Source: Candidatus Woesearchaeota archaeon (GTDB lineage: Archaea; Nanobdellota; Nanobdellia; Woesearchaeales; JAAOYA01). Taken from it: 64,000 nucleotides of DNA. The stretch spans positions 221,733 through 285,732 of the forward strand of contig JAAOYA010000001.1 in NCBI GenBank assembly GCA_018221105.1, read 5' to 3'. A program made the position numbers and the translations under genes. Below are positions 21,409 to 64,000 of this stretch, in pieces (within the stretch, counting starts at the first letter, position 1; each line of letters starts with the position of its first letter). The notes beneath the pieces were generated by a model. It had not been told where the DNA came from. It searched no databases and was given only the letters and a program-made list of their open reading frames with translations.

Positions 21409-21460
21409 AGAATTCACCGCATAACAGCGAAGGGGGAGTCCGTGCTACGCACATATGAGA
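21409..21460 (+). repeat. GC-rich flank element, left side of the PHP-ATPase module
   Basis: The pattern TTAGAATT, about 18-20 nt, GTCC, TACG and ATAT seen here recurs in order at 25299-25345, just past the last gene of the PHP-ATPase operon. The shared blocks are short, so this is only a candidate direct repeat or boundary mark. It contains a small palindrome GTGCTACGCAC. Confidence 0.25.
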
Positions 21461-21505
21461 GTTTAAAACCGAGTCAGATTTTCTGTTTTTCCATTCTTAA
21501 AAAGA

Positions 21506-21514
21506 TTTATATAA
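21506..21514 (+). promoter_or_regulatory. TATA box of the PHP-ATPase operon
   Basis: TTTATATAA, 29 nt before the ATG at 21535. It excludes the longer open frame that begins at 21442. Confidence 0.65.
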
Positions 21515-21534
21515 AAATTGTCTTTAATATATCT

Positions 21535-24357
21535 ATGAATAAAGGTTCAATTTGGAGAAAATGGGATTTTCATCTACATACACCCTGTTCTATTTTGAAT
21601 AATGGGTACGGTGATTCTTCTAAAGATGAAACTTGGGATAACTACATAGAACAAATTGAGAAAGTAGCAAAAGAAAAACACATTTCAGCTATAGGAATAA
21701 CTGATTATTTCATGATTGAAGGATATAAAAAAGTTGAAGAGTATAAAGAAAAAGGAAGATTGGAAGATATCTTCATTTTTCCAAATATTGAATTCAGAGC
21801 AGACAAAATTATTACAGTAAAAAAAGAAGGAAAAACAACTGTCACAAAAAGAATTAATTTTCACATCCTATTTTCTCCCGATGTAGATATAAATACTATA
21901 AGAGAGCATTTCTTAGATGATATTGAATTTATTTATGAAGAGGACACCTTTTCTTCAGGTCAAAAAAGGAAACTAAAAATAAGTAATATAGCAGAGTTTG
22001 GAAAAACTCTAAAAAGTCAACATAAAAAATTCAAAGACATGTCTGATTTATTTGTTGGTTGTATGAATGCCGTTGTTGACCCTAATGCCGTAAAGGAGAT
22101 ATTAGAAAAAAATGATAAATTTAAAGGAAAATATTTGATTTGTCTTGCAGAAGACCATACATCTTTAATGGGATGGGATAGTGCAGCTCATGGCACTAGG
22201 AAACAACTTTTACAGATGTCACATTGTGTTTTTTCATCAAATAAAAAAACGAGAGACTTTTGTTTAGCGACAGGTAAAAATGTTAATGAACACCTTGCTG
22301 AATTTAAATCATTAAAACCCTGTATTTGGGGTTGTGATGGGCATGATTATAAAGATAGGTTTTTAATTCCTGAAAAGAACCAAGAAGGAAAAATTAATTT
22401 TTGTTGGGTGAAATCTGATTTAACTTGGAATGGATTAATGCAAATATTATATGAACCAAGACAAAGAATAAGAATCCAAGAAGATAACCCTGAAACACAA
22501 AAAAGTATCCATACCCTTGATAAGATAAAAATTGAGGAAACTGAAATAAATGCTGGACTAAAAATAAAAAAAACAGATATTGATCTAAATCATAATTTAA
22601 TCTCTGTAATAGGTGGTAGAGGTTCTGGAAAAACTGCAATTCTTGATTTAATAGCTTCATGTTTCAAAGAAGGAGAAAAATTAGAACAATTAGATTCTTC
22701 TTTTTATAAGAGACTTTATGGTAAAAAGACTTCTAATAAGCCAATTACAGTTAAACTAAGTACAAAATCTAAAAAGGATGTTATCTCAAAGAAAATAGGA
22801 GAAGAAAAGAAGATTATTGACGAAGCAGATATTAGGTATATTACTCAGAAACATTTTGAAGGTTTATCATCCGATTCCCAGCAATTAAGTAAATATGTTT
22901 TTGATATTATCTTTGAGAAAAGTCCTGATGAGTTAGAACAATATTACACCAAAAAAGAAAGCATCAAAAATAAAGAAAAAGAGATTGAAAAAATTAATTT
23001 ATCTATTCAACAATTATTAAATGAAATCAATGAAATTTCTGTTTTGAACGAAGAAAAGAAGAAAAAAGAAGGGGATAAAAAAGACTGTGAAGAAAGGATA
23101 AAGGAAATAGAAGATAAAGAAAAGATAGATGAGAAACTAGATGAGGTCGCTAAAAAACTTAAAGAAAAGAGGGATGAACGTAAAGATCTTGAGAGTGCAA
23201 AAACTAGACTTGAGACTATTAAAACAAGTATGGAACAAATACATAACTTTAATTCCTTGGTGGAAGGATTTAATGATGAGTTTAGTGAAAAACTTAAGAT
23301 TGGTAAGCTAGATATGTTTGATATTGGATTATTTGAAAAAATAAGTTCGAGTATAAAAACTAATGAAGAAACTATTTTAAAAAAAATAGAAGAAATAAGC
23401 AAAGAAATAGAAGAAATAAATAAGGAGTTTAAATCTTTTGAAGAAACTCATAAAACTATTAGTGAATTAAAGAAAAAATTGATAACTATTAATGAAGATA
23501 TCGAAAAAATAGATAAAAAAATAGAAGAAATGAAAGAGAAAGAGAAAGAAATAAAATCTCTACAAAATAATATATTTGATATAACAAAAGAAATAATCAA
23601 AGGACATATAGAATTAAGTGATTTCTTAAATAAACATATTAAAAAAATTGAACAAGGAAAGAACGAATTGCTAAAAAATCTAGACTTTTGCATAGTGCTT
23701 GAAATCGATAATAGTTCTTTCTGTGATAAGATAAATGAGCATGTGAACAATCAAACTATTTCTCGAAGGGAATTATCTTTAAATATAGAAAGAGAAATAA
23801 TTAAACCCTTAAACGATATTATAAATGATTCCAAAGATGAATATGATAAACTCAAAGAAGGTTATGAGAAAGTACACGAAATTATAGAAGATAAGTTGAA
23901 AAAAAAGGTAAAATACGCCGAGGTTAATAATTCATTATTTGAAATACCTATAAATACAAAAATCAATATAAGTTTAGATAAAATACCTTTAGAGAGTTTA
24001 TCTATGGGACAGAGAGCTATAGTATTAATGCAAACTATACTAGCTTACGATGATAAACCTTTACTAATTGATCAGCCAGAAGAGGATTTGGATAATAAAT
24101 ACATCTATGAACAACTAGTATCAGCTTTAAGAAAAGCAAAAGAAAAAAGACAAGTGATAATAGCAAGCCACAATGCAAATTTAGTTGTAAATACAGATTC
24201 TGAGCAAATTATTATTGCAGATTATAAAGATGGGGAAATATCTTATACGGTTGGCACTATTGAGAATTTAGACACACAAGGTAAAATTAAAAGCATTTTA
24301 GAAGGAGGAAAAGAAGCTTTTGAAAAGAGAAAAGAAAAGTATGGCTATAAATTTTAA
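21535..24357 (+). CDS. PHP-domain/SMC-like ATPase (TrlF/Ppl type), probable defence protein
   Basis: A 940-residue protein joining a metal-dependent PHP phosphoesterase domain to an SMC/Rad50-like ATPase. PHP part (1-330): DFHLH at 11-15, GITDYF near 60, FPNIEF near 83, AEDH near 207 and CDGHDYKDR near 267. ATPase part: Walker A GGRGSGKT at 360-367, a long charged coiled coil at about 470-790, signature SLSMGQRA at about 822, Walker B LLIDQPEEDLD at about 843, and the H-loop ASHNAN. This is the layout of the TrlF/Ppl family; a PHP-ATPase of this kind has been reported as a single-gene anti-phage system. Codon use is AGA/AGG-rich. Three small genes follow with gaps of 0-13 bp. Confidence 0.85.
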   Translation: MNKGSIWRKWDFHLHTPCSILNNGYGDSSKDETWDNYIEQIEKVAKEKHISAIGITDYFMIEGYKKVEEYKEKGRLEDIFIFPNIEFRADKIITVKKEGKTTVTKRINFHILFSPDVDINTIREHFLDDIEFIYEEDTFSSGQKRKLKISNIAEFGKTLKSQHKKFKDMSDLFVGCMNAVVDPNAVKEILEKNDKFKGKYLICLAEDHTSLMGWDSAAHGTRKQLLQMSHCVFSSNKKTRDFCLATGKNVNEHLAEFKSLKPCIWGCDGHDYKDRFLIPEKNQEGKINFCWVKSDLTWNGLMQILYEPRQRIRIQEDNPETQKSIHTLDKIKIEETEINAGLKIKKTDIDLNHNLISVIGGRGSGKTAILDLIASCFKEGEKLEQLDSSFYKRLYGKKTSNKPITVKLSTKSKKDVISKKIGEEKKIIDEADIRYITQKHFEGLSSDSQQLSKYVFDIIFEKSPDELEQYYTKKESIKNKEKEIEKINLSIQQLLNEINEISVLNEEKKKKEGDKKDCEERIKEIEDKEKIDEKLDEVAKKLKEKRDERKDLESAKTRLETIKTSMEQIHNFNSLVEGFNDEFSEKLKIGKLDMFDIGLFEKISSSIKTNEETILKKIEEISKEIEEINKEFKSFEETHKTISELKKKLITINEDIEKIDKKIEEMKEKEKEIKSLQNNIFDITKEIIKGHIELSDFLNKHIKKIEQGKNELLKNLDFCIVLEIDNSSFCDKINEHVNNQTISRRELSLNIEREIIKPLNDIINDSKDEYDKLKEGYEKVHEIIEDKLKKKVKYAEVNNSLFEIPINTKINISLDKIPLESLSMGQRAIVLMQTILAYDDKPLLIDQPEEDLDNKYIYEQLVSALRKAKEKRQVIIASHNANLVVNTDSEQIIIADYKDGEISYTVGTIENLDTQGKIKSILEGGKEAFEKRKEKYGYKF

Positions 24358-25997: not shown

Positions 25998-26021
25998 ATT
26001 GTGTTGTTTTTTGGTGTTTTC

Positions 26022-28733
26022 ATGAATAAGAATTTGCTTTTGAAATTGACTGTTTTTGTTATTGTTTTAGTCTACGTGTTCACTTCTGGTTTGGCTGGAT
26101 TGTTTACTGATTATTTGTGGTTTGACGCTTTGGGTTTTGAACAAATTTTTTTGATATCTTTTTTTGCTAAGATTCAATTGTTTTTTGTTGCCGCAATAAT
26201 TTTTTTCTTTTTTGCAATTGTTAATGTTTTTATATCATCAAAAATAATCAGAAAAAACAGGTTTCCTTTCAAATTAAAATTACTTATCATAACAGTTTTA
26301 TCTGTTATGGTTGGCTTTAGTGTTTCTTCAAAATGGTTTAAGTTTTTGCAATTTTTTAATCAAACATCTTTTAATATCCTAGATCCTATTTTTGCGAAAG
26401 ATGTTTCATTTTATGTTTTTTCACTTCCTTTATACCAAACAATTTTAGGTTTTTTTGTTAGCACAGTAGTTCTGACTACTATTTTGGTAGTCTTAGATTA
26501 TTTGAACTCGTTTATAGATTTTAAGCAATTATTTACTGATTCACAATTTCCTAAAGAAGTTGTCACAATGCCTCATAAATCGTTTGATTTTAAAGTATTG
26601 TTCACTAAAAGAAAAGCAATAATTCATTCTGGAATTTTAATATCAATATTCTTTTTATTATTAGCTGTAAAACATTATCTTTCAAGATTTTCTATAATGT
26701 ACTCAAAGAAAGGCATTGTTGTAGGAGCAGGTTATTCTGATGTTGTAGCGTACTTGCCAATGATCAAAATTTTAATGTTTTTGGCTGTTATCATGGCAGT
26801 AATGCTATTAGTTTGGGTTTTTTATATTTCAAAACAGCCAAAATTAAGAAAAAGGCACGTTTTTGCTTATGCGCTAATAGTTTATTTATTGTTTGGTTTC
26901 GTAGGCCCTACTATGATTCCTGGGCTTGTGCAAACATTAAAAGTTTCGCCTAATGAGATCAATCTTGAAAAGCCATACATTGAAAATAATATAAAGTTTA
27001 CAAGGTTAGCGTATAATCTAGCAGATGTTGAAGAGAAAGATTTTGATGTTGAAACAGCTTTAACTTCTACAATTTTGGACGGTGCAAAAGAAACTATTGA
27101 TAATGTTAGAATATTAGATTGGCGTCCACTAACTAAAACTTACAAGCAAACACAAGAGATAAGATTGTATTATGATCTTGCAGGTATTGACATTGACAGA
27201 TATATTATTGATGGAAAATACACTCAGGTCATGCTGTCCCCTAGAGAACTAGACCAAAATCAAATAACTGCGAACGCAAAAACTTGGGTTAACTTGCACA
27301 TGGTTTACACTCATGGTTTTGGTGTTGTGATGAGTCCAGTGAACAAGGTTACAAAGCAAGGATTGCCTAATTATTTTATTAAAGACATCCCGCCAGTTTA
27401 CACAGTTGACGAAACTAATTTAAGAATTTCAAAACCGCAAGTGTATTATGGAGAAAGAGACAATGATTATGTTTTAGTTAACACAAAAACACAAGAGTTT
27501 GATTTTCCTAAAGGCGATACTAACGAATACATTAATTATGATGGTAAAGGAGGAGTAATATTAGATTCTTTCTTTAAAAAATTATTATTTGCTGTAAAGT
27601 TTACAGATGTTAAAATTTTATTATCTTCAGATATAACAGTTGATAGCAAACTAATGTTCACGCGAAATATTGTTGATAGAATATCAAAGCTCACACCATT
27701 TTTAGGATTGGATAGTGATCCTTACTTAGTTATTGATAATGGCAAATTATTATGGATTGTTGACGCGTACACACTATCAGGAAATTATCCTTATTCTGAA
27801 AAATATGGACAAATAAATTATATAAGAAATTCTGTCAAAATAGTTGTTGACGCGTACGATGGCAGCGTAACATATTATGTTATTGACACAACTGATCCTA
27901 TAATAATGACTTATGCTAAAATATTTCCTAAACAATTCAGACAATTTGAAGATATGCCGGCAAGTTTAAAAGCTCACATAAGGTATCCTGTGGACTTGTT
28001 TAAAATACAATCACAAATTTATAGCATTTATCACATGGACGATGTTAAAGTTTTTTATAATAAAGAAGATGCATGGCAGATTCCAAACGAAGTTTACGGT
28101 GTTGGAGAACAAGTAACAGTTGAACCTTATTATATAATAATAAAACTTCCCCAAGAGACTAAAGAAGAATTTGTTTTAATGACATCTTTCACGCCAATAA
28201 AAAAGGATAATATGGTCGCTTGGATGGCCGCAAGGTCAGATGGTGATAATTATGGAAAGTTAATACTTTACAAATTTCAAAAAGATAAATTAATTTATGG
28301 ACCCCTGCAAATTGAAGCAAAAATTGATCAGGACTCTGAAATTTCACAACAACTCACTCTTTGGAGTCAGCAAGGCTCAAGGGTTACAAGGGGAAATTTG
28401 CTCGTAATACCAATAAAGGACAGTATTTTGTATATTGAACCATTATATATTCAAGCAGAAACAGGCCAACTTCCAGAACTAAAAAGAGTTTTAGTGTCTG
28501 ACGGTGTACGAGTCGTGATGGAAGAAGACTTATCTACTGCTTTAGAAGTTTTGTTTGGCAAATCTAAACAAGTTTTTGTTGAAAAAGAAGAAAAATCAAC
28601 AATTGAACTTATTGAAGAAGCACAAACTTATTATGATCTAATACAAGATTCAATGAAACAAGGAGATTGGACGGGCATAGGAGACAGTTTAGACAAATTA
28701 GGCACTGTTCTTGACAATCTAAAAAGTGATTAA
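26022..28733 (+). CDS. UPF0182 family membrane protein
   Basis: A 903-residue protein with the layout of UPF0182 (COG1615). About seven hydrophobic membrane segments lie in the first 310 residues (first at about 5-27, with TSGLAGLFTDYLWFDALGF after it, which is typical). A large extracytoplasmic domain of about 550 residues follows, with the conserved NWR/WRPLTKTY, YTHGFG, YYGE and LWIVDAYT-like blocks, and a short C-terminal acidic helix. The biochemical role of the family is unknown; it is common in Actinobacteria, cyanobacteria and some archaea. The gene stands alone with its own TATA box. Confidence 0.85.
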   Translation: MNKNLLLKLTVFVIVLVYVFTSGLAGLFTDYLWFDALGFEQIFLISFFAKIQLFFVAAIIFFFFAIVNVFISSKIIRKNRFPFKLKLLIITVLSVMVGFSVSSKWFKFLQFFNQTSFNILDPIFAKDVSFYVFSLPLYQTILGFFVSTVVLTTILVVLDYLNSFIDFKQLFTDSQFPKEVVTMPHKSFDFKVLFTKRKAIIHSGILISIFFLLLAVKHYLSRFSIMYSKKGIVVGAGYSDVVAYLPMIKILMFLAVIMAVMLLVWVFYISKQPKLRKRHVFAYALIVYLLFGFVGPTMIPGLVQTLKVSPNEINLEKPYIENNIKFTRLAYNLADVEEKDFDVETALTSTILDGAKETIDNVRILDWRPLTKTYKQTQEIRLYYDLAGIDIDRYIIDGKYTQVMLSPRELDQNQITANAKTWVNLHMVYTHGFGVVMSPVNKVTKQGLPNYFIKDIPPVYTVDETNLRISKPQVYYGERDNDYVLVNTKTQEFDFPKGDTNEYINYDGKGGVILDSFFKKLLFAVKFTDVKILLSSDITVDSKLMFTRNIVDRISKLTPFLGLDSDPYLVIDNGKLLWIVDAYTLSGNYPYSEKYGQINYIRNSVKIVVDAYDGSVTYYVIDTTDPIIMTYAKIFPKQFRQFEDMPASLKAHIRYPVDLFKIQSQIYSIYHMDDVKVFYNKEDAWQIPNEVYGVGEQVTVEPYYIIIKLPQETKEEFVLMTSFTPIKKDNMVAWMAARSDGDNYGKLILYKFQKDKLIYGPLQIEAKIDQDSEISQQLTLWSQQGSRVTRGNLLVIPIKDSILYIEPLYIQAETGQLPELKRVLVSDGVRVVMEEDLSTALEVLFGKSKQVFVEKEEKSTIELIEEAQTYYDLIQDSMKQGDWTGIGDSLDKLGTVLDNLKSD

Positions 28734-41951: not shown

Positions 41952-42530
41952 ATGACATTCACCGAGGAAAAAAAAGAATACTTGCAAGCATTGCAAAAGC
42001 CTGACAGCTCAAAACAAGGCCACATTGACAAAGAAATATTGCCATTAGTGGACACCATCAACAAATTAGAAGATTATTATACGACAAGCTCGTGCGCAGG
42101 CAGAATAATACTAATAGAATTCAAAGAACCACTACGAAAAGATAATACTCACTGGCACTACACAAGCCACCAACAAGCAAAACTATCAGACATTCAAAAA
42201 GCATTACAAAAACCTTCACAGTTTGACGTTTGGCTAAAAGTTGAAGGAGCAATACTGCACGTATGCGCAAAAGACCTAGACTCTGCACAAATTCTATTAA
42301 ACACTGCACGTGCTTGCGGCTTTAAACGATCAGGAATAATGAGTGTGAACAAAAGAATAATGCTAGAGTTAACAGCAACAGAAATGATGGACTGCCTAGT
42401 AAAACGCGAAGGAAAAATAATAATCCCTGATGATTACCTAAAAATCTTTGTAGAAGAAGCAAATAAAAAACTATCAAACAACACACAAAAAGTAGCAAGA
42501 TTGCACGAGAAAATAAACAAATTGCACTAG
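41952..42530 (+). CDS. taw3: tRNA-Phe wyosine methyltransferase Taw3/TYW3
   Basis: A 192-residue enzyme of the TYW3/Taw3 family, which N4-methylates the 7-aminocarboxypropyl-demethylwyosine at position 37 of tRNA-Phe. Visible family blocks: [26 protein letters not shown] near 27-52 with the SSCAGR motif, [22 protein letters not shown] near 96-110 and [11 protein letters not shown] near 120-130. The end is normal. Wyosine synthesis is an archaeal/eukaryotic trait. No other taw gene is in the window. Confidence 0.93.
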
Positions 42531-42531
42531 T

Positions 42532-42542
42532 TTTATATATAA
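42532..42542 (+). promoter_or_regulatory. archaeal TATA box of the sigma-fusion gene
   Basis: TTTATATATAA. The predicted transcription start near 42558 leaves a 25-nt leader with a GGGAG Shine-Dalgarno element (42574-42578), 4 nt before the ATG at 42583. So the gene for the sigma-like protein itself has an archaeal-type promoter. Confidence 0.6.
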
Positions 42543-42582: not shown

Positions 42583-45500
42583 ATGACGGGAGAAGTAACG
42601 CTAGAGAAAGTAACATTAGTTGATGAATCTGTGCGCCGCACTTTAATAGCAATGGGTTATGAAACTCTACAAAAAGGCGAAGAACTATCAAAAAAAACCA
42701 GTTTTTTAGTGGCTTCTCGCCCAGAAGATGATGTAAAAGGCGTGTTTGCTGTTCGCCAAACCAACAATGGAAATCTTATAGGAGAAGTAGGAAAACTTGT
42801 TTTAGAATATGTTGATGGGCGCATTGTCTACACATTATTTGAAAGTTATAACAGTTCTAAACCACCAGTACAAACTTATAGCGCTTCTATTGAAGCCACT
42901 AAAAGAGAATTCTTAGATATTGCAGGAGCACAAAGTATGTGCATCGAACAAACAAAAAAAAGAACAAATAGTGTACCACGACACCATCCAATAGCAATAA
43001 TCACACAACACGGCAAAGCCTACAAAACAACAAATCTTGAATCAATACTTAACACTCAGGCAACAGAACCTTCAGAGCCAATAGAATCTGAAACAATCCC
43101 TGAACCAGTAAAGAAGCCAAAAATCATAGAGTATGACATTCCTGAAGACTTTGTACAAGTAAGAGAAGGAAGTTTCAATGAACTTTCAACAATTTATGAT
43201 TCTACAAGAGCAACTATCTCTAGTAAAAGAAAAAGGTTTCCAGAGGAAATAATACCATTAAGAAAAGAAGGCGAGACTACAATTTTTGGCGTTTCATCAA
43301 AAGGCAATCAAATACTGCAATATAAAGGTATGATGCCAAAAGAAAAAGCAAAACAAATAGGAATAGAAGACACTCCAATGCGTGACCGTGAAGAAGTCAA
43401 AGCAATAATAGCTCAGGGTTTTGAACTCATAGAAGACTTAGTACAACAGTTAGGGGCGTCATATTCTAAGTTGAACAATTTGTTTAGCGCACATCCTGAT
43501 CATGTAGAACGACAAAAAGTTGGAAACCGCACACTATACAAGCCTAATGATGAATTGTTAGCCAAGATAGAAAAAACAAAAATAATTAGGCCCAGCGAAG
43601 TATTAGAAGATGATATAATAGTACATCAAGGAGTTATCAGCGAACTTACAAAAATCTATGGTTGTTCAAAGTCAAAAATACGCGATGTTCAAAAAAAATA
43701 TCCTGATGCTATACGATTTGTCACTATAGAAAATGCGAAAAAGATTCTTGCAATCACCCAGCAAGGAGATGAACTATTACAAAGTGATGGCAGAGGAAGA
43801 CAAAAGAAAAAAACAGAAAGCTTGCCAACTGCAAAACCAGAACCTTCGATACTTGAAGAAAAAGTTGAAGCTTTGCCGCAGACGGAAGTTGTTGAAGAAA
43901 CTGCCAGTGCAAAATTAAAAACTCAAAGAGAACAAGAAATTGCTTCACTAAAAGCTCAAGGCTGGCAAGATATGACAGGATTAGAAGAATCATTAGATCG
44001 TCACTTTACAGATATTTACAAACTACTAAAAAAACATGCTGGCGACGGAATCGAAAGAACACAAATTGGCAAAAAAGTAGTTTATAAGCTTCCAGAATAT
44101 TTAATAGAAGAATTTAGAAAAAAAGAAAAGCCCCCGCAAAAAGATAACGCGATAAGTTCACAAGAACCTTCAACTCTAAAAGAAGACTTAAGTCAAATAG
44201 TTCAAACAACTCCACACTCTCATGTTGTTGAAGATGATGATGTTTTAGCGTGCCAAGGCACTGCTGATCAGATCGCTAGCAAAATAGGGTGCACTAAAAG
44301 AGAATTGATACAATTAAAAGAACGGCATCCAGAGTTTATTACTACAATAAAAAAACGTGGCAAAAAAACAATTCTTGGTCTGACACAACAAGGTTATAAC
44401 ACTTTTTTGGATATGAATATTCCTAAAGCTTTAGAATTGCCAAGCACTCAACCAACAACAACCAGTGAAATAGAAGAAAAAGTTGAAGGTCCACAAGCTA
44501 ACACTCTTTATTTTCTGCCTGACTTGGCAGAAGTTGTTGGCACAAGCATTGAAGTTATTGATGCAATGCTTAAAGATCACCCTTCAACACATGACCGTTA
44601 TGGAGAAGGGTTCATTCTAACACCTAGCGCAGTAAAGCGTCTAGCTAACGAGCAACTAATAAAGAAGTACGAAATCATTGTGAAAAAACAGGCAAGCGAA
44701 AGTATTCCAAAACAAAGTTCTGCTTCAAAAAAGGCACCAACACAAGAAGAAAAAATTGAAAATGATTTAGAATGTGTTGTAAAAAAAGAAGTAAAGAGCG
44801 TTAAAAGAACTATGGAAAAATATAAGGAGCTAAAAAAAGCTCCCGAAAGTTTAGAAGATATTGACGTTCAAGCAAGTTATCTTTGTTTTGATATCGACTC
44901 GAAGTTATTGCCTAAAGACATTCATGTAGCATCTCATTATAAAAGTGCTGCCAGGAAAAAATTGCCTAGTGAAAGTTTAACAAGTCGTGATGGTTATATC
45001 GTAATAAAAGGTTCTGTTGTTTCAGATTATATTCAAACAATTGTAGAATCCGCTGATTTAAGAGAGTTCAAACAATTAATTTTGACAATGCCTTTTGAAA
45101 AAGCAATAGTTCAAGTTTCTACTAATGGATTCGTAGAAGCTTCAAAAGCAGCAAACTACACTTCAATAGCTTTAAAACTCGCTTGTGAAAATCCTGAGGA
45201 ATTATTGTCACAAAATAGTGAAGATGGCTCTAAATTAGCTTTTAGAACTCTTGAAGATGGTCAAAGAGTTGTTGAAGTTGAAGAAATATCGAGGTTTGCC
45301 AAAACAAATAAAACTAAAGAAAGTGAACACTCGTTAGTAATTAGCAAAATAAGACATCATACTGATCAAGGTGCTATCGCGCAATTATCGATTGATAATC
45401 ATTTGAGTGTTGAAGACACTTTGAAGTTCTTAGAAATAAAACTACCTAATTTAGAGTTTAGTTTTGAAAATAGTTTTACTAGTGACGCTGACAAAAAAGA

Positions 45501-47808
45501 CAAAATGTCGTATAAGACAATAGATGGAAAGCAAGTTGTAGCAGCACAAGAAGTCTTAGAGTTTTTTGAAAAACAAAAAGAAATACAAAAAGTAATAGTT
45601 ATAGCGGCTAGAGAAGCAAAACTTGTTGAAGAACACTCTTTTTTAGAACAATATGAAGGTCTGCAAAGCACTACTGATTCTGAAAAATTTTATTTAGCTT
45701 CACAGTTAGAAAAAAGTATTCTTGAAGAAACTAGAATTCCGGCGTATACTGCAAAAGTGTTAAAGGGGAAAATTCCTGCTGCAATGAAAAAAAAAGTTAG
45801 TAAAACTGTTGCAATACGAGGCGATTTTGTAAAGGAGTATCAACGCCTTGTTAAGCTAGAATCAACCAAGGGAAAATTAAGAAATAAATCTTTTGAAAGT
45901 ATAATAAGTGAATTTCCAGAAGATATTAGTTTAGATGAGGTTGTAGTATTGTTAAGTGCTGAATTTGGCGACACTTCATTTTATGAAGCTTTAGACAATG
46001 ATGATGCAGACCTTCAAATGATCTTGCCACTATTAAAAGTTGATGATTATGATGGCATTAAAAGTGTTAAGTCTCAAGACTTTTTAGAGTTTTACAATTA
46101 TGAAAGAAAAATACGCGATACTATGATTGAACTAGCACTTGCAAAAAAAGGTTCCAAAAAAGAAAAAATGTTAGACCTCAATCATAGAGAGTTCAATGGC
46201 GGAAAAGTAAATACTGGAGAAATCTATTCGTTTAATAGTGTTACAACTTATGCTTTGACAAAGATTGGAAAAGTTGCTCCTGGCAAGATTACACAAATAT
46301 TTGAAGGTCTTTCTAAAGGAGCTCTTGAAGGCAAAAATAATAGAAGATTTTTGCGAGGCAATGCTGTAAGCGAATACTTGCTTATGCATTCAGTTGGTGT
46401 TTTTGAAGGACAATTAAGTATTAGAACTCCTGAAAACTTTTTACACACTAACTATAATGGTGGCAATGTTCCTTTAAATGATGCTCTAAAAATATTGTAT
46501 GCTAAACTAAAAGATGAATATTTTTTGAAAAAATTGATGGGAAAAAGCAAGAAAAAACTTCCATCAAGTCTTGTAGTAATAGAGGATAATGGTTCTCAAA
46601 GCGTGACATCAGAATCTATAACAAAGTATCTTCGAGATAAAAAAGCAGTTATTGATGCTATTGATGAAGCGCAAAGATTAGAAGAGGAGCGACTCGAGCA
46701 AGGATTAGAAAATGGTGAGCAAGAAACTAAACAGAGCGAGGATCAAGAATTAGAAGTTGACGATGATCAAGTTTTAGAAGTTATGGCAAGTATTGCATCA
46801 CAAGATTTAGAATCAATGATTGAGCAAGAGAATGAAGAAGTATCAGAAAACGATCAAACAGAAGCAGGTTATAGTAATGGCAATAGCATAATTGAAAATC
46901 CAGTGAACACAAGAAAAAAAAGAAGAAGGCGACATTCAATTGATTCTTTTGGAATTTATTTATCTGAGATGGGACAGTACCGTTTATTATCAAGAAAAGA
47001 AGAGGTTATTCTTGCAAAAAAAATGGCTAAAGGCGATCCTCAAGCTAGAACAGAGTTTGCAACTCACAATCTTCGTTTGGTTATAAGCATTGCAAAACGA
47101 TATTTTGGCAGGGGGCTTGAGTTTCCAGATTTAGTTCAAGAAGGAAATCTTGGGCTTATGAAAGCTGTTGAAAAGTTTGAACATGAAAGAGGGTTTAAGT
47201 TTTCAACATATGCTACTTGGTGGATTCGCCAATCAATAACTAGAGCCATTGCTGATAAGGGAAGAGCTATAAGAATTCCTGTTCACATGATAGAGAACAG
47301 AAACAAGGTTTTAAGGACTATTGAACAACTTTCTTCGCAACAATACACCGATCCTAATGTTGAACCTGGACAATATAACAGGCCTAGTGTTGAACAAATA
47401 GCAGAAAAATCAGGGGTGCCTGAAAAAACTGTTAGAAAAATTTTAGAAAGTCCTGTAATAAGACCTAATGTTTTATCAATTAACACACCTGTAGGAGATG
47501 GCGAGGATTCTGAACTGTTAGACTTTGTAGCAGATCCTAAAAGTTTAAACCCTCATCAAATTCTTGAGCAAAAAGATTTAGAAAGAGTTGTAGAAGAAGT
47601 TCTAGAAACATTAAGTGAAAGAGAACGAGATATTGTCAAGCACCGTCTTGGTATTGGCACAGGCATTCCAATGACTTTAGAGGAAGTTGGAGAATTAAAA
47701 GGTGTTACTCGCGAGCGGATTAGACAAATCGAATCTAAGGCCCTTAGAAGATTAACGCATCGTAGTAGAAAGAAGATTTTAGAAAAATCAGGTTATGCAC
47801 ATAATTAA
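42583..47808 (+). CDS. giant protein: tandem HTH-like modules fused to a complete sigma-70 factor
   Basis: A 1741-residue soluble protein. Residues 1-140 are an unrecognised domain. About 190-690 contain alternating wHTH-like modules: type A (starting QGxxxEL, near 192, 347, 556) and type B (near 272, 450, a variant at 643), joined by acidic linkers. About 700-1430 is helical and unrecognised. An acidic linker and RKKRRRR lead to a sigma-70 primary-type factor (about 1454-1741; nt 46942-47805). Its parts are region 1.2 ([15 protein letters not shown]), region 2.2 ([17 protein letters not shown]), 2.3/2.4 ([14 protein letters not shown], with the -10-recognising Gln and Thr), region 2.5/3.0 (RIPVHMIE), a region 3.2 finger ([14 protein letters not shown]) and region 4.2 ([24 protein letters not shown]). 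All key residues match bacterial primary sigma. Archaeal genomes are not expected to encode sigma. Confidence 0.85.
46942..47805 (+). other. sigma-70 domain block (regions 1.2 to 4.2)
   Basis: This is the sigma part of the 1741-residue protein, in the same frame as the rest, with no stop or break between. It includes every element for contact with core RNA polymerase, the -10 element and the -35 element. Region 1.1 is missing; the HTH-rich N-terminus stands in its place. Confidence 0.9.
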
Positions 47809-49408: not shown

Positions 49409-50680
49409 TTATTTGGCTTCGCCCCATTTTATGAGGGCTTTTTTTAGCTCTACACGGTTTTGTGCCCAATCAGTCAAAGAACTCTTGTGTTGTACTGCGT
49501 CCATTGCTTGTCGTACAGCTCTAGCGCCTGATAGTGTGCCGTTTGGGTGTCCGTGAACGCCGCCACCGAATTGCATTATCACATCAGGACCCATTCTAGC
49601 GTGAACTTTTGGTATGCTGCCAGGGTGGAGTCCCCCGCTAGCTACTGCGAATACTGGTTTTACCCCGTGCCAGTCTTGTGCTAAAATATGATTTTTTCCT
49701 TTAATCATTGGTTCTTCAATTTCTCGCTCTATCTCTAGCACTTCATCTGGACTCCCTTCCATTTTCCCAACATCCGCTGTCCCAATGTGCAATTGGTCAA
49801 CACCAATAAGACGACTAATCATTGCTAACACATGCATTGTGATGCCGTGCTTTGGATTGCGTGTTAGCGCGCCGTGACCTGCCCTGTGAGCGTGCAATAC
49901 TTGAAACACGTGATCGCGAACTGTTTGCAGTCCTGCAAAACCTGCTGTTAGAACATCCACCATCACGTATTCTCCGCCATGACGCTCTACATACTTTGCT
50001 CTTTTTAACATTTCAAAAGTCTCAGCAGTGATGTTTGGCATGTAAATCTTTTTCTCTCCTGTTTCACGCTCTGCCTTATCGCGCAATTTTAATGTTTTGT
50101 CGATTCTTTTTTGAAAATTGTTAAAACTCATGCTTGTAAGGTTTTCGTCATCTTTTACAATGTCAAGTCCTCCAACCCAAGAATCATAAGCTACTTTTGC
50201 GTGATGCGCCTCGTCAAGGCCAACTTTTGGTTTTACAATAGTGCCAAGTAATGGTCTTTTTGGCAATTTTAGCATTTTGCGAATCCCTTTGATTCCATAG
50301 CGCGGTCCTTTAAAGCTTTGAACCATTTTTTTTGGAAATGTTATGTCAGTTAATCGCAAATTGTCAATTACTTTCATTCCATAAATGTTTCCAGCAATAG
50401 CCGATAGTATTTGCGGCATGTTGCCTGCCTCAAATAGTTCTTGAGGGTATGCTATTCTTGCCAAACGCTTTTTTTTATTGATAGAATATACTGATGGTCG
50501 TAGTTTTGTAGCAATTTTTTTGTTCATTGTGGACAGTTCAGTCCATGTTCCGATGCTGCTCTCGGCTGCTACTTGCTCGCAAGCTTGCTCGAATGTTAGG
50601 CCTTTGGCTGGCTCTACATAATATTGTACAACAAGATCGTTCTTTGTTGGTTTGTACTTTAAGTCAACATAGTCTAGCAT
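49409..50680 (-). CDS. rbcL: ribulose-bisphosphate carboxylase, form III-type large subunit
   Basis: A 423-residue RuBisCO large subunit. Catalytic blocks are all present: GTIVKPKVGL (the Lys of the TxKPK loop), GGLDIVKDDENL with the carbamylated Lys, HAHRAGHGALTR, HIGTADVGKMEG with loop 6, SGGLHPG and GGGVHGHPNG. The length and archaeal context suggest form III, which in archaea works in AMP/nucleoside recycling with AMP phosphorylase and ribose-1,5-bisphosphate isomerase; neither is in this window. Start: ATG at 50680 with GGGGTGG 8 nt upstream (a GTG at 50692 is also possible). It is the last gene of a three-gene operon. Confidence 0.95.
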   Translation of the reverse strand: MLDYVDLKYKPTKNDLVVQYYVEPAKGLTFEQACEQVAAESSIGTWTELSTMNKKIATKLRPSVYSINKKKRLARIAYPQELFEAGNMPQILSAIAGNIYGMKVIDNLRLTDITFPKKMVQSFKGPRYGIKGIRKMLKLPKRPLLGTIVKPKVGLDEAHHAKVAYDSWVGGLDIVKDDENLTSMSFNNFQKRIDKTLKLRDKAERETGEKKIYMPNITAETFEMLKRAKYVERHGGEYVMVDVLTAGFAGLQTVRDHVFQVLHAHRAGHGALTRNPKHGITMHVLAMISRLIGVDQLHIGTADVGKMEGSPDEVLEIEREIEEPMIKGKNHILAQDWHGVKPVFAVASGGLHPGSIPKVHARMGPDVIMQFGGGVHGHPNGTLSGARAVRQAMDAVQHKSSLTDWAQNRVELKKALIKWGEAK

Positions 50681-50700
50681 TGCGCCGACCACCCCTCTCT

Positions 50701-53762: not shown

Positions 53763-54440
53763 GTGCCGCAAATTAAGCAGAAAATGATTAAGATAACAGC
53801 AAGTCTTATAGAAGAAGTGGTCAGTGAAGTGGCCGGCAAAGACACAATACCACTAGTTAATTTACTAAAAGGCCAAAAAGAAAAGATTTCAGAGTTTAAA
53901 ATCGCTGATGACTTAGACTTAGACATTAAAGAAGTTCGCAACATGCTTTACCGATTGTACAAGCACAACCTAGTGAGTTTTAATCGTAAAAAAGACAAGC
54001 AAAAAGGATGGTATATTTATTATTGGGATTTTAACAAACCACTAATCGAACACTTATATTTCATCATCAAAAAAGACAAGCTTGAAAAACTAAAAGAACG
54101 CTTAGTGCGCGAACAAACTCACAAGTTCTACTTGTGCCCTCGCGGTTGCGTGAGAGCAGATTTTGATCAAGCAACAGAATGGTTTTACAAATGTCCAGAG
54201 TGTGACAGTATAATGCAAGAACAAGATAATGAGCGAACAATAGACCATTTAACAAAACTTATTGCAGAGCTAGAAAACGACCTAAAAAAAGAACGTCAAA
54301 GCTCTATACTAAAAAACGCGAGAAAGAAAACAGCAACAAAAAAAGTTGTGGCACCAAAGAAAACCAGCAAGAAAAAAACCGTTTTAAAGAAAAAAACAAC
54401 TACTTCTAAAAAGAAAATCACCACAAAGAAAAAACGTTAG
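53763..54440 (+). CDS. tfe: transcription factor E (TFE alpha)
   Basis: A 225-residue archaeal general transcription factor that helps open promoters with TBP, TFB and RNA polymerase. It has an N-terminal winged helix (about 1-100; FKIADDLDLDIKEVRNMLYRLYKHNLV), a coiled linker, and a zinc ribbon with Cys125, Cys129, Cys144 and Cys147. The first pair is CPRGC, with three residues between cysteines instead of the usual two. The C-terminal 45 residues are Lys/Thr-rich, an extension not found in classical TFE. Start: GTG at 53763 with GGGGTGG 9 nt upstream. It shows that the standard archaeal initiation machinery is present. Confidence 0.9.
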   Translation: MPQIKQKMIKITASLIEEVVSEVAGKDTIPLVNLLKGQKEKISEFKIADDLDLDIKEVRNMLYRLYKHNLVSFNRKKDKQKGWYIYYWDFNKPLIEHLYFIIKKDKLEKLKERLVREQTHKFYLCPRGCVRADFDQATEWFYKCPECDSIMQEQDNERTIDHLTKLIAELENDLKKERQSSILKNARKKTATKKVVAPKKTSKKKTVLKKKTTTSKKKITTKKKR

Positions 54441-57353: not shown

Positions 57354-60300
57354 ATGTTAAGGGAGACTAAGGGTGTAGTGCATTACACAAACAAAGAAAA
57401 CTAGCTACAGTAATGTAAGTAACAGTAGCAAGCATAACAGATTCTTAGCGTTAGCAACAACGCTCTTCTTTTTGATAATATTGTCTTTTTCTGTAAGTGC
57501 AACAAATTATTATGTGAATAATAACGCGTCAGGAACTAATAATGGTAGTGATTGGAATAACGCGTGGGAGAGTTTTGCAGATATTGCTTGGGGCAGTATT
57601 AACCCTGGAGATTACATTTATGTTAGTGGGGGGAGCACTAACAAAACATATAATTCAAGATTAGTTGTTGGGGCTAGCGGAAACGCCACGCACCATATAA
57701 CCATCAAAGTCGGCCAAGACACAGGGCACAATGGCAAGGCAATAATAACAGACTCGACAGCGTTCTACACAAGTATAAAAATAGAAGACCAACACGACAT
57801 CATAATTGATGGAAGAGTCGAAAATGGTACAGGTCAAAACTTTATTCTTAAAGGCTCGGACGCTGGAGGGGTGTATGTTTTAGATAACGTCACAAACATA
57901 AGATTAAGCTACTTGGACATATACAATAATTCTGGGCACGGAATCAACATTATAATCAGAGAACAAAACGGGACAATACAAGTTGATAACTCCAAAATTC
58001 ATGATAACAAAGCAGGAATAAACGTTACCGTAACACAATTATGGATTCATCACAACGCAGATGGTGGAAGAGGAAACAATTATTCAAGAATCTTAATACA
58101 CGATAACAAAATTTTTGATTTTTCTGGTGATGCTGTGAAACTAGATTTTGACGGAGTCGATTTTTATGATAACGAAGTTTTTAATCGTTCTATAAGAACT
58201 AATGATCACATTGATGGAATACAAGGAAACGGTGATTGGAGATATTGGAGGATTTACAATAATTACTTCCATGACTTTAACAGATTAGATCAAGAAGACG
58301 AATACAACGCGTGGATACGATACGGAGACGCGTTTGGAGCTGGCAACAATATTAGCAACATCTTGATTTACAATAACATTTTTGAAGAGACAAGACCACC
58401 TCCTCCAGGAACAGTTTTTAGAGGTTTAGAAATCGCGATACAAGCACCACACGTAAACACAGTGATTGTCGCAAACAATGTTTTACTAGGAAATCCAACA
58501 AATTCTATACTTATTGACTTTTTTAGAAGCGTTGGAGAAGGATACGCAACTGACGAAAACACATCCAATGTTATAGTAGCAAACAACATAATTATAGATA
58601 GCTCCTCAGAAGCAGGCAGCACAATTGGGTGGGACCTAGGAACAACATCTGATAATATAACAATAGGTTCATTTGGAGATAATGTAAGTTTTATAGTAGA
58701 TAACAACATTATATACGCAAGCAACGCTTCATACTCAACAGACATGGACGGGACAAGTTATTCAACAGCAAAATCAAATAGTGGAGTACAAAATAATGAT
58801 GCGGGCAGTCCAATAAATCCTGATCTAAATATTTCATATTATCCTTATACAAACTCTTCAGCAATCGACGCCGGATTTAACTTATCAACTTATTTCACAA
58901 ACGACTTCGACGGTGTAACTAGATCACAAGGATTAGGTTGGGATATAGGAGTGTTTGAGAGCAATTACACAGCCGGTGTTTGCGAGAACGTATCCGTTTT
59001 ATGTGTTAATTGGGATGGGAGCGCAGAGTATACAACAGTCCAATCCGCAGCGAATGTTGCGAGTGCTGGCGACACAGTTCTGGTTTATAACGGTTATTAT
59101 GATGAGAGTGTCACGTTTAATAATAATGGTAATATAACACATCCTTTACTTGTTAAAGCAATAGACAATGATACTATTGTTCGACGTTTTGACATAAATC
59201 GCAATTATGTTACTATTGAAGGTTTTACTTTAACAGGTCATACTGTAGCGTACCAGGGAACTGTTAATATTAGAGACACAGTTAATAATATTCAAATAAT
59301 CAATAATAGTTTTGTTAATCAATCACACGATATTTACAGTGTTTATTTTGCTAATGGTGGAACAAATCCTTCTAGCTCAGCAAGTGATTGTTTAATCAAA
59401 GATAATGTTTTTGACAATCAAGAATCTTTAATTAACAGTTTTAATGCTTCTCACATGTTAAATCTCATGGGAGTGAATAACACTGTTGAAAACAATGTTT
59501 TCAAGTATTCTGCAGGCGCGGACGCGATAAGAATATTTGGCGCTAATCACACTATTAGAAATAACACTTTTACACATATAGAAGAAGTTCCTTACAATGG
59601 TAACCACGCAGACATCATCCAAACATTTGGATCAAACGGGCATGCTAGTTATGGACACGTATTCGAAAACAATTTTGTATATGATTGTGCAGAGGTGCAA
59701 CTTGGACAAGTAACTCAAGATTGTGGTCCTGGAGGGACTAACTGCACTAATAGGACCGATGTTAACGGGCTTATTGATTCAATCACCGGAGAAAACATTA
59801 CAGACACTTCGCAATCCTGGAGTGTTGATAACTGGAATGATATATACGTAGTTCACATACTTAACGGTAGCGCTAACGGAGCTATTTATTTAATAAAAGA
59901 CACCCAGTCAGACACTTTAACATTATCACATATCAATAATTCGATTGCAAACTTAACAAATGACGGCGTTTTAGCAGGAGATTATTATCAGATACACACT
60001 CGAATTGGCTGGATGACTTTTAGAAACAATATTTATGTTAACATGGGGTATCTTGCCGGAGGCGATTTTAACAACGTAGCACCTCACATGTACTGGTACA
60101 ACAACATTTTTTACAACAGTACAAGCACACAACCTAACGTATTAGATTTCGCAAGACATGATTGGGGAATAGCTGATCATGCAATCATAAAAAATAATGT
60201 GTTTTTAAAATCCGGAAACGTTCCTTCTAATCCAACAAGAGGATTCTACGATTTTTACGGCACAAGAGTAATCGATGTCGGAGCCCCTATAGGATATGAT

Positions 60301-63300
60301 ACTTCTAACAATTACTTTGGCGGACCAAACTACGCAGAAAAAACAATCAATGAATCAAACGCTGTTAACGGAAGCAACCCATACTTTGTAAACGAAGGAG
60401 GAATCACTAAACAAGACTGGATGTTACTTAGCAACAGCACATTAATAGACTCTGGAGCAACAATAACAACTTTCAACTACGACACATTCCTGACAACACG
60501 ACCGCAAGGTAGTGGTTGGGACATCGGAGCTTATGAATTTTTAGGCAATGCTTCTTTCCTACCTATTTATTCTAATTTTAATGGTGCGACTACTAACTTT
60601 AGTTCGCACAATAGTTCTAGTATTCAAAACGTTTCTAGTCTTGTTTTGGAGATTGTTGGTTTTGGAAAGATAGAGTTTAATCAATGGGTTAATGTAAGCG
60701 GTGCCAATTTGGATCGTGATGTGCTCATTCAAAACAAGTTGATTGGTGTTGATAGTGTTCTAGAACCACGCCTCAATAAGAGCGCTACAATCACTTTTTA
60801 CAACATTGAATACTCCAATCCTATAGTATACAAGGATGGTGTTGTTTTTACAACTTATAATTACACATTAACAGGAACTAATCTCAGTTTAAACGTTAGC
60901 AGTTTTTCAAATTTCACTGCTGGCAGTAATGCTAATCTGACAATTTTCGATGATACTGACGGCACAACAAAGTACACTGGCGAGATTGTAACGTTTTACG
61001 CGAATTATACTAATAGCACGAGCGGTTCTTTGATTACTGGAGCTTCTTGTAACATAACTTTTAATGGCACTTGGTTTTCAATGAATGAAACACCAAGTAT
61101 TTACGAGTACAATAACACTTTCACGACTAATGGAACATATTTATTCAATGTAACATGTGCTAAAACTGGTTTTGATACTTTGAACTTGACGGACAATTAT
61201 GTTATAAATTCCAGTAACATAAATTGTAATAATTGTTCTGATTGTTCTAGTAAACTACAAAATTCAAGCAATGAAAATAGCACTGTGTTCCTTGCTCAAG
61301 ACATTCTAAATTACGATGGTGATTGTGTTGAGTTTGGCGGCGCAGATAATATTAATTTTAGTTGTAATGGTTTCACACTAGAAGGTATTGGCAGTAATTG
61401 GAATAGTGAAGGAATACTAGCCAGTAATTCAGACAATGTTGCCATAATTGATTGTCCAAATATTACAGGTTGGGCTAATGGGATAGTCGTCACAAACGCG
61501 GATAGTGTTTTAGTAAGAAATGTGTCAACTATTAATAATCTACAAGCAGGATTAGACTTGAGCACGGACAATAGTGTATATGAAAGCATAAACTCTAGCT
61601 ATAACGGTCAAAGAGGGATTTACCTTACTTATTCAGACGGAAACATAGTCAATAACACTGAATTAAAAGAAAATGATAATTATGATTTAGATTTTGGCAC
61701 TAACGGACCACAGGATTGTGATAACACTTTTGAAAATATTTCTATCTCTGGTGACAGACCTTTAGGTTTTTACAATGATACTGTTAATCTGCAAGACCAG
61801 GAGTATTCTCTTTTAATTCTTTGTGATGCTGATAACAGCAATTTGACCAATATTACAGTTAAAGGCTCTAACGCATTAAATAATAACTACTTCAAAACAT
61901 TATTTGTTGATAATTCAACTTTTACTAATATTAATTCATCAAATAATTATGAAGGTGTTTACATTTATTATTCTAATAATAACACCTTTGATAATATAAT
62001 AGCCAATAACAACGCAGACGATGGCATTCTTTTGCGAGACTCGCAAGATAATAACATATCAAACGCAACATTGATAAATAATCAGTACGGATTCAGATTT
62101 CGTGGCTGGAACGATCCAAGCACAAATAATATCATAAGAGATTCGATTGTTCAAAACGCAACAAATAGCAGTATCAATTTTTTAATGAATTCCTATGCTG
62201 TTACAAACAACTATTTTTACAACAACATTTTCAATAGCACACTAAATTTTTACTCAGACAATATCAATCACAGTCCAAACTATTTCAACACAACACTAAC
62301 AGTTGGCACTAACATCATCGGCGGCAGCAATATTGGAGGTAATTTTTGGGCACAACCAAACGGGCAAGGCTGGAGTGAAAATTGCTCCGATAGTAACGGC
62401 GATGGAATTTGCGAAGCACAATATGACTTAGCAATCAACAACACTGACTATTTGCCATTAACACTTAACGGAGCGTCTCCAATAATTACTCTAAACAACC
62501 CGCCTAATGGTTCAAGCATTGTCAACAATTATCAATTGTTAAACGCTACAGTTACCAGCGAGGGCAATAATTCAATAACAGCAAAACTACTTGGATATTA
62601 TGCTGACGAAATAAATCCAAGCGAAGAAACAGGACTTGTTTTCTTAATGCACTTAAACAACAATAGTGATATTGGAGAGAATGACACTGTTTTTGTTGAC
62701 GAATCAGGATTAGGTAATAATGGTACCTGTGGCGATCCATCGCTTACTAATTGGACAACTTATTGCCCAACACTAAACACTAATGGAAAATTCTACAATA
62801 GTTATTTGTTTGATGGAGAAAACCAAGACGAAGCAATCTTAGTGCTTGATGACCCAACTATATCCGGACTCTCCGAGATAACTGTTAGTGTTTGGATTTA
62901 TCCGACAGAACACCCTGTTGATTGTTACGGTATTTCATGCTATAATACTATTGTCACAAAAGGTAATTACACAGAAGATAGGGAGTTCAGACTAAGATAT
63001 GAAGATGTAGGGGATGGTTTTAATGGCTATGTATGGCATGTTAGTGGTAACGGTAGTGACCCCGACACTAACGAAACACGAATTAATGTCTCAGAAGTTT
63101 CGTTAAACGAGTGGCATCACCTAGTAGGCACTTGGACAAATACTACGGGCCAGTTACGCTTTTACTTAGATGGTACACTAAAACATACAGACTATTACTC
63201 TGCCAGCAGCATTTTTGATGGATCAGCTCATCTTGCTATTGGTAGCAGCAGTGATAACGGCGGTGGCGGCGCCAGCCCTAATAATATAGATGATTATAGG

Positions 63301-64000
63301 GGGACAATTGACGAAGTAGCAATTTATAACAGAACATTATCAGACCAAGAAATATTCAGAATATATGACAAAGGAAGACACAAAATATTATATCGGGCAC
63401 AAAACCTTTCTAATGGTACAGAGATTAATTACAATTTGACTTCAATACCACTAAGTGTTAACAAAGACATGGTACTCTTGATGCACTTTGACAATGACAG
63501 TTCAAAAGGAGAAAACAATACCTTTGTTTATGATTGGACAGGCCTTGGAAACAAAGGTACCTGTAGTGGCTCTGTTTGTCCAGCAATGAACGTTAGCGGT
63601 GGAAAATTCGCTGGAGCATTCGAGTATGATGGTAGCGATGATTACATAAAAATTGATGATGATCCAATGTTAGACCTCGTAGGCAATTTCACAATATCAG
63701 CATGGATAAACCCAGCGTCATTTGGTGAAAATAATCAAGGAAGAATTGTTGATAAAGGTGGAGGTGGGGGAGATGGTTGGTCATTTCACGTAGATAATAA
63801 TACCCCAACAAATGCATTATCATTACAAATTGATGGTGCTGAATTCAACTCAAATAATAATTCTATCGAGCTTAATAAATGGCAATTAGTTACTGTAACA
63901 CTTGAAGGGTCAACAGGTTCTTTCTATGTTGATGGAGTTTTCATAAATAGTGTTGATACAGGCGGTAATGAACCTGCAAATCCTAACGATTATAATGTAA
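57354..64000 (+). CDS. giant Asn-rich surface protein, beta-helix and LamG domains, runs off the window; frameshift near start
   Basis: One frame is open without a stop from 57379 to the window end (over 2200 codons). It encodes a signal peptide (FLALATTLFFLIILSFSVSA), then right-handed parallel beta-helix (pectate-lyase/NosD-like) domains near 57.5-58.9, 58.98-60.5 and 61.3-62.4 kb, the first two closing in GWDIGVFES/GWDIGAYEF. An immunoglobulin-like stretch lies near 60.6-61.2 kb. Two concanavalin/LamG-type domains follow at about 62.6-63.4 and 63.45-64 kb (LMHLNNNS..; FYLDGTLKHT). Asn and N-x-S/T sequons are very frequent. This frame has no ATG, GTG or TTG at its 5' end; the likely ATG (57354, leaderless to the TATA box) is in another frame and would join it if one A were lost from the run at 57397-57400. 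A start at ATT 57382 is the alternative. Confidence 0.7.

Follow-up and report, generated by a model that had tools for sequence, protein, structure and literature searches.

What does a bacterial-type sigma-70 factor do at the end of a giant protein in an archaeon, where textbook transcription relies on TBP, TFB, and TFE? The question is raised by a locus in a Candidatus Woesearchaeota genome (assembly GCA_018221105.1), for which the original prediction proposed an undescribed hybrid initiation or regulatory system. We analyzed a 64,000-nucleotide stretch of contig C5 (the window), the rest of the genome, and related archaeal genomes. Positions are those of the window unless another contig or locus is named; G, C, and L numbers are our handles for genomes, contigs, and loci.

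A single frame joins a long N-terminal part to a sigma-70 part

The gene is an ORF of 1741 amino acids (42583-47808, forward strand) with an ATG start and zero internal stops in its translation. Four Pfam families matched above their curated cut-offs: Sigma70_r1_2 (residues 1454-1486, E 5.7e-11), Sigma70_r2 (residues 1494-1561, E 3.9e-23), Sigma70_r3 (residues 1600-1658, E 3.1e-8), and Sigma70_r4 (residues 1673-1724, E 7.8e-15). Regions 2 and 4, together with 1.2 and 3, place the protein in the sigma-70 family; the TFB (TFIIB) repeats PF00382 were absent among the four families matched. The open frame and the Pfam matches confirmed the claim of a complete sigma-70 block in frame with the rest of the protein. 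The start predicted for the block, 46942, is the first base of the Sigma70_r1_2 match, and the two recognition-helix peptides cited earlier (16 and 10 residues) are both present in the translation. Region 1.1 (PF03979) gave no Pfam match anywhere in the protein and an N-terminal part (N-part) of ~1440 residues stands in its place, as had been predicted. The scores fell below the NCBIfam equivalog cut-offs for primary RpoD (TIGR02393, 292.6 versus 354; NF006666, 314.8 versus 572). A genome-wide profile search returned a single region-2 match, the fusion gene itself. The features of the gene are as follows.

42526..42539, forward strand: TATA-like promoter element (ACTAGTTTTATATA) upstream of the sigma gene, starting 57 nt from the ATG (pattern match)
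42583..47808, forward strand: single gene comprising the N-part and the sigma-70 part (ORF call, translation, Pfam)
43138..43587, forward strand: modules A1-B1, predicted winged helices, residues 186-335 (AlphaFold2)
43600..44130, forward strand: modules A2-B2, repeat of A1-B1 at 25% identity, residues 340-516 (sequence comparison)
44224..44676, forward strand: modules A3-B3, repeat of A1-B1 at 22% identity, residues 548-698 (sequence comparison)
44854..46644, forward strand: further module-like stretches, residues 758-1354 (marked by eye)
45373-45576, forward strand: one later module, predicted beta-helix-helix-beta-beta-helix, residues 931-998 (structure model)
46660..46929, forward strand: acidic linker, residues 1360-1449 (sequence; NF006666 aligns from residue 1380)
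46942..47040, forward strand: sigma region 1.2 (Pfam)
47062..47265, forward strand: sigma region 2, core binding and -10 recognition (Pfam and residue comparison)
47380..47556, forward strand: sigma region 3 (Pfam)
47599..47754, forward strand: sigma region 4, -35 recognition helix (Pfam and residue comparison)

The GC3 along the gene was even (0.176-0.235 over nine 600-base steps, sigma part included, without a step); that of nine other window genes was 0.234-0.355.

The fusion gene lies in an archaeal genome

The genome comprises 1.15 Mb in 11 contigs (completeness 92.24, contamination 0.21), of which C5 accounts for 286 kb. Its size, the neighbouring genes, and the literature fit a DPANN archaeon, probably one of the Woesearchaeales. 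The archaeal character claimed for the surroundings, based on TFE, eS1, class I LysRS, and Taw3, was borne out: the window holds these four genes, and C5 also carries Rpo1 and TFB.

41952-42530: Taw3 (Pfam)
53763-54440: TFE
10462-11232: eS1/S3Ae
14861-16438: class I LysRS
49409-50692: type III RuBisCO (NCBIfam)
C5:147930-148850: Rpo1, same contig as the fusion
C5:188369-188626: TFB, same contig as the fusion

The TBP gene lies on contig C7. The genome has one Rpb1-type domain, which is archaeal, and therefore no bacterial beta-prime.

Bacterial contact residues are retained in the sigma part

Across 80 bacterial sigmas picked by likeness to the query, 97 columns show at least 95% conservation; the sigma part retains 83 of them. 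Five of the six E. coli positions that we take to be core-binding residues of region 2.2 (402, 403, 406, 407, 409, and 413) are retained, the exception being 402 (P, not L). All eight residues presumed to contact the -10 element (W433, W434, Q437, and T440) and the -35 element (R584, E585, R588, and Q589) are kept. Among 22 archaeal sigmas, D403 and Q406 occur in 22/22, E407 and N409 in 20/22, and R584/E585/R588/Q589 in 95-100%. Mean retention was 0.82 in region 2.2, 0.81 in 2.3, 0.81 in 4.1, 0.77 in 4.2, and 0.55 in 3.2; these 22 are 30 rows minus 8 short, partial, or weak ones, the removal of which raises the figures. Regions 2.2 and 2.3 (core binding and melting) were thus retained best and the finger 3.2 worst, a pattern that would be expected of a protein still meeting an RNA polymerase. 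The sigma part is thus strongly constrained at the positions with which bacterial sigmas touch RNA polymerase, -10, and -35.

The nearest named relatives, the 80 best among 545 confirmed loci, carried bacterial titles throughout, from many phyla, at 46-55% identity to the sigma part, with the best bacterial proteins at ~53%; the closest solved chains were SigA (8x6f and 7ckq). Over columns 383-600, the median identity of the fusion's sigma was 0.55 to 80 bacterial and 0.45 to 21 other archaeal sigmas. The values for the archaeal sigmas were 0.41 among themselves versus 0.47 to bacterial ones, so they are less alike to one another than to the bacterial sigmas. In a 50-row tree, the archaeal rows did not form one clade (at least three changes forced, AU p 0.039), a borderline result open to long-branch error. 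As for a donor, the same tree, built after 11 of 61 rows had been removed for their long branches, gave no placement of the fusion's sigma.

Compared with bacterial primary sigma-70 (RpoD/SigA), the fusion protein thus shares regions 1.2, 2, 3, and 4 and most of the conserved columns. It differs in lacking region 1.1, in its 1440-residue N-part, in its scores below the NCBIfam RpoD cut-offs, and in residing in a cell with archaeal RNAP, TBP, and TFB.

The N-part contains predicted winged helices

Modules A1-B1 were modeled by AlphaFold2 on a 3-row alignment (mean pLDDT 77.3, pTM 0.40) and are predicted winged helices. With no relatives found for the N-part, this fold prediction relies on shallow alignments among its internal repeats. 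The fold search with module A gave weak winged-helix matches, TFE-alpha among them. Residues 931-998 were modeled with a mean pLDDT of 82.5 and a pTM of 0.66, and the fold search with this model gave no significant match (best E 0.5). The HTH-rich N-terminus of the original prediction is in keeping with the winged helices predicted for the two parts that were folded; the further stretches within residues 758-1354 were marked by eye. The fusion protein is comparable to archaeal TFB/TFE, initiation factors that bind the clamp, and TFE-alpha is one of the weak matches above; it differs in having no TFB or TFE Pfam match, and the genome has separate TFB and TFE genes.

A search of the N-part (residues 1-1440) against 5.8 billion proteins returned the protein itself as the one match among 7120 candidates; the search is word-based, so distant relatives may escape it. 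Pattern matches were obtained in genome contigs (61) and viral contigs (11), and none was confirmed. Among 193 genomes of the order, the N-part was found in one, its own. Module HMMs run against 475 proteins gave, besides the protein itself, nothing better than E 0.06, and BLAST against 123 extension or neighbour segments reached a best E of 0.2. For the 119 best-ranked of 1613 long sigma proteins, the best E was 0.66 by BLAST and 0.037 by module HMM. Giant sigma proteins are thus not unique, and the N-part of this one appears to be so in the searches made. The lack of relatives with the same fusion, which the original prediction counted as a point against itself, holds for the N-part in the searches made, whereas other archaeal sigmas bear other long extensions.

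Sigma genes are common in related archaea

We detected sigma region 2 in 70 of the 193 order genomes (67 over the cut-off) and in 54 of the 135 of good quality. A phylum-wide sample that overlaps the order set had it in 127 of its 371 genomes. Sigma match and Rpo1 share a contig in at least 10 of the 70 order genomes (9 of these 10 sigma matches are over the cut-off), including a single-contig genome, G010. Sigma-70 is described as prevalent in Woesearchaeota, with mis-binning ruled out and its role and control unclear, in the accessible text of Castelle et al. 2021 (PMC8204110), and that of PMC6126073 credits Rinke et al. with the first description of archaeal sigma factors. With archaeal sigmas in print and in 70/193 order genomes, the fusion's sigma is no isolated oddity, and the term "undescribed" does not hold as such. 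Like our case, these reports concern sigma-70 in archaeal genomes, with mis-binning argued against; unlike it, they contain, as far as their accessible text goes, neither this fusion nor promoter, clamp-helix, or residue-retention tests. No experimental study of an archaeal sigma was found in a literature search with limited coverage of subscription journals. What is new in the literature searched, where we found no earlier description, is the giant fusion of winged-helix N-part and sigma-70 part, together with the promoter and polymerase tests.

At 20 further archaeal sigma loci, which were chosen for long frames, the sigma frame spans at least 400 amino acids in 18. At 10 of 20 sigma loci, at least one neighbour has a homologue on the window's contig. 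A domain of ~130 residues recurs ahead of the sigma block in L180 and L183 and twice in L208. GHKL ATPase genes adjoin the sigma genes in L182, L183, and L207. In L207 (G145), the sigma gene lies 26 nt from a gene for a 635-amino-acid protein with HTH matches (HTH_23, E 4.9e-14) and, by reading, four Fis-like repeats. No sequence similarity was found between this protein and the fusion's N-part; L207 presents the architecture of the window gene in unfused form, without detectable homology. Relatives of the L183 GHKL protein occur in 16/193 genomes and not in that of the fusion, so a GHKL partner does not explain the fusion gene.

The same-strand run at L207:3122-10213 encodes the HTH-repeat protein, the sigma, an unknown protein, and two GHKL ATPases, and resembles bacterial defence modules of sigma plus MutL-like proteins. 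At L208:8551-14514, two sigma genes are followed by genes for 609- and 1369-amino-acid proteins without a Pfam match; the former has the N-terminal domain common to the L208 sigmas and the latter a C-terminal domain common to the GHKL partner of L183. Such sigma pairs recur: in nine of the 26 order genomes with at least two region-2 matches, two of the matches share a contig and lie no more than 6 kb apart (for example G053:C31, G041:C42, G170:C4, G064:C55, and G081:C9; loci L185, L186, L187, L189, and L208). A PHROGs scan of 116 neighbours gave no dominant phage family among the first 25 of 69 entries.

No sigma signature was seen in promoters or polymerase clamp

Promoters were examined on C5, so the detailed tests cover about a quarter of the genome; gene calling there gave 228 genes, and 140 upstream regions entered the analysis. 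The strongest upstream motif was BRE/TATA-like, and in 43 of the 100 regions bearing it the start falls into a single 5-nt bin, 36-40 nt ahead of the start codon. Scores of at least 5 were reached by 105/140 upstreams versus 26.5 in shuffles. The TATA-like element of the sigma gene, which overlaps the end of the Taw3 gene, scored 10.74 with the motif learnt from C5, a value reached by 0.7% of shuffled 80-nt upstreams. Most C5 upstreams examined, that of the sigma gene included, thus appear to bear BRE/TATA-like promoters. A further motif, AC(A)AG followed by a T-rich stretch, emerged from the 35 of 140 upstreams with a weak TATA score (log-likelihood 63.5 versus 36.7-42.7 in five mononucleotide shuffles); we set it aside as a possible control artefact, since the shuffles break poly-T runs.

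Sites resembling -35/-10 promoters were found on C5 in 17/140 upstreams at a score of at least 8 (11.0 +- 3.7 shuffled), 7/140 at 9 or more (4.5 +- 1.8), and 0/140 at 10 or more (1.7). Intergenic sites of at least 11 bits numbered 3 versus 4.0 on C5 and 6 versus 4.9 around 40 sigma loci. The exact consensus occurred three times in the whole genome (control 1; 2.5 expected from composition), each time inside a long open frame. Across the order, there were 111 hits in the 70 sigma-bearing genomes (control 74, ratio 1.50) and 234 in the 123 sigma-free ones (control 132, ratio 1.77), with a permutation p of 0.78 for an excess in the former; the reversed-pattern control is imperfect, as both groups exceed it. 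Consensus sites were at chance level in five tests, and a small or non-consensus set may exist.

The accessible text of PMC3223566 describes the clamp coiled coil as a common landing site for TFB/TFE and Spt5 in archaea and for sigma70 in bacteria. Of the 187 genomes with Rpo1, we compared 51 at eleven sites of the clamp helices. The 32 sigma-bearing genomes were uniform except for two changes at one site, and the 19 sigma-free genomes were the same except for a few scattered changes. The Rpo1 of the fusion's genome has E, L, and H at the equivalents of E. coli beta-prime R293, E295, and A302, which we take to be sigma-critical sites (at another site, R275, the alignment may be off by one column). 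The bacterial clamp residues of a sigma partner RNAP are thus not found in it, and the same E/L/H residues occur in sigma-free genomes, except for one D at 293. With clamp residues like those of sigma-free genomes, nothing shows adaptation to sigma. That sigma uses the archaeal clamp helices, as originally suggested, is possible, but the helices, being alike in both groups, lend it no positive support. The other suggestion, control of an imported promoter set, is not supported, given consensus sites at chance on C5, genome-wide, and across the order, BRE/TATA-like promoters, and unadapted clamp helices.

A specialized regulator as the preferred reading

We favor, with a probability of about 0.4, the reading that the fusion is a specialized transcription regulator in its own archaeal cell, its sigma part docking on the RNAP clamp and its winged-helix array aiming it. 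Sigma region 2 would bind the Rpo1 clamp coiled coil, and the array and region 4 would select a few DNA sites. The outcome would be activation, repression, or sigma-style initiation at few non-consensus promoters, not general transcription. In its favor, 83/97 conserved columns are kept, and the clamp is the landing site of TFB/TFE in archaea and of sigma70 in bacteria. The reading also gains from the archaeal cell, the TATA-like promoter of the sigma gene, the spread of sigma genes through the order, and the unfused pairing in L207; it is weakened by the unadapted clamp, the target promoters not found, and the shallow alignments behind the N-part fold. Unlikely, in our estimate, is TBP/TFB-independent initiation, in which sigma would load via the clamp coiled coil, its intact region 2 would open the DNA, and the winged-helix array would replace the -35/-10 code. 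If this were true, the archaeal sigmas of the lineage would form an indigenous family of regulators that combine sigma with HTH arrays, either by fusion or by pairing within an operon.

The long array of predicted winged helices, the sigma-type promoters not found, and the unadapted clamp helices would also suit a sigma block that now only binds DNA, within a multi-winged-helix regulator or nucleoid-type protein without RNAP contact. We hold this to be rather unlikely, since regions 2.2 (0.82) and 2.3 (0.81), needless for a plain DNA binder, are kept at least as well as the -35 region (0.77), which argues against it. The kept bacterial contact and promoter residues, set against a polymerase and promoters of its own that do not match them, leave room for action on the bacterial RNAP of a partner cell, to which the archaeon would deliver the protein to redirect transcription. 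This appears quite improbable: reading the N-terminal sequence by eye reveals no signal peptide, a 1741-amino-acid cargo is large, sigma genes sit amid housekeeping genes, and the partners of DPANN archaea known to us are archaea.

Even less probable is that the gene belongs to a mobile or defence module like MZA of bacteria, where sigma factor and GHKL (MutL-like) ATPase are encoded together. MzaA, too, is long, ends in a sigma-70 block, and is among the sigma matches of the fusion (NCBIfam, PADLOC); mzaA is described as a sigma factor of the mzaABCDE system (PMC9523054), and GHKL genes adjoin sigma genes in L182, L183, and L207. Yet the MzaA match scores 304.9 bits, far short of the cut-off of 800, and is confined to the sigma part, no MZA partner genes were seen beside the fusion, no GHKL gene was among the window genes scanned, and the genome gave no match to the L183 GHKL protein. 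An assembly chimera or contamination would fit the fact that our searches returned no second copy of the exact fusion, yet it is hardly credible. The grounds are indirect: a single frame, even GC3, archaeal genes to either side, a contig that also holds Rpo1 and TFB, the contamination estimate of 0.21, sigma genes in many related genomes, and sigma and Rpo1 on one contig in at least 10/70 sigma-bearing genomes, G010 included.

The fusion is an extreme archaeal sigma: its recognition residues are complete, a candidate targeting part is fused to it, and the obvious targets gave a clear negative. The role of archaeal sigma can therefore be put to the test by asking whether such a protein binds archaeal RNA polymerase and, if it does, where on DNA. 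Binding to the archaeal enzyme would make it the first sigma-driven archaeal polymerase known to us; if it bound the bacterial polymerase alone, a role inside a partner cell would be indicated.

Other genes in the window

Three further genes of the window drew our attention. The frame at 57472-64000 (at least 2176 codons, running off the contig end) encodes what appears, by eye, to be a secreted repeat protein with parallel-beta-helix and LamG features. The 971-amino-acid protein at 21442-24357 combines an AAA_21 domain with a C-terminal PADLOC match to the defence protein Ppl (E 4.3e-27). At 26001-28733 lies a full-length UPF0182 protein (E 1.7e-280), here in an archaeon.
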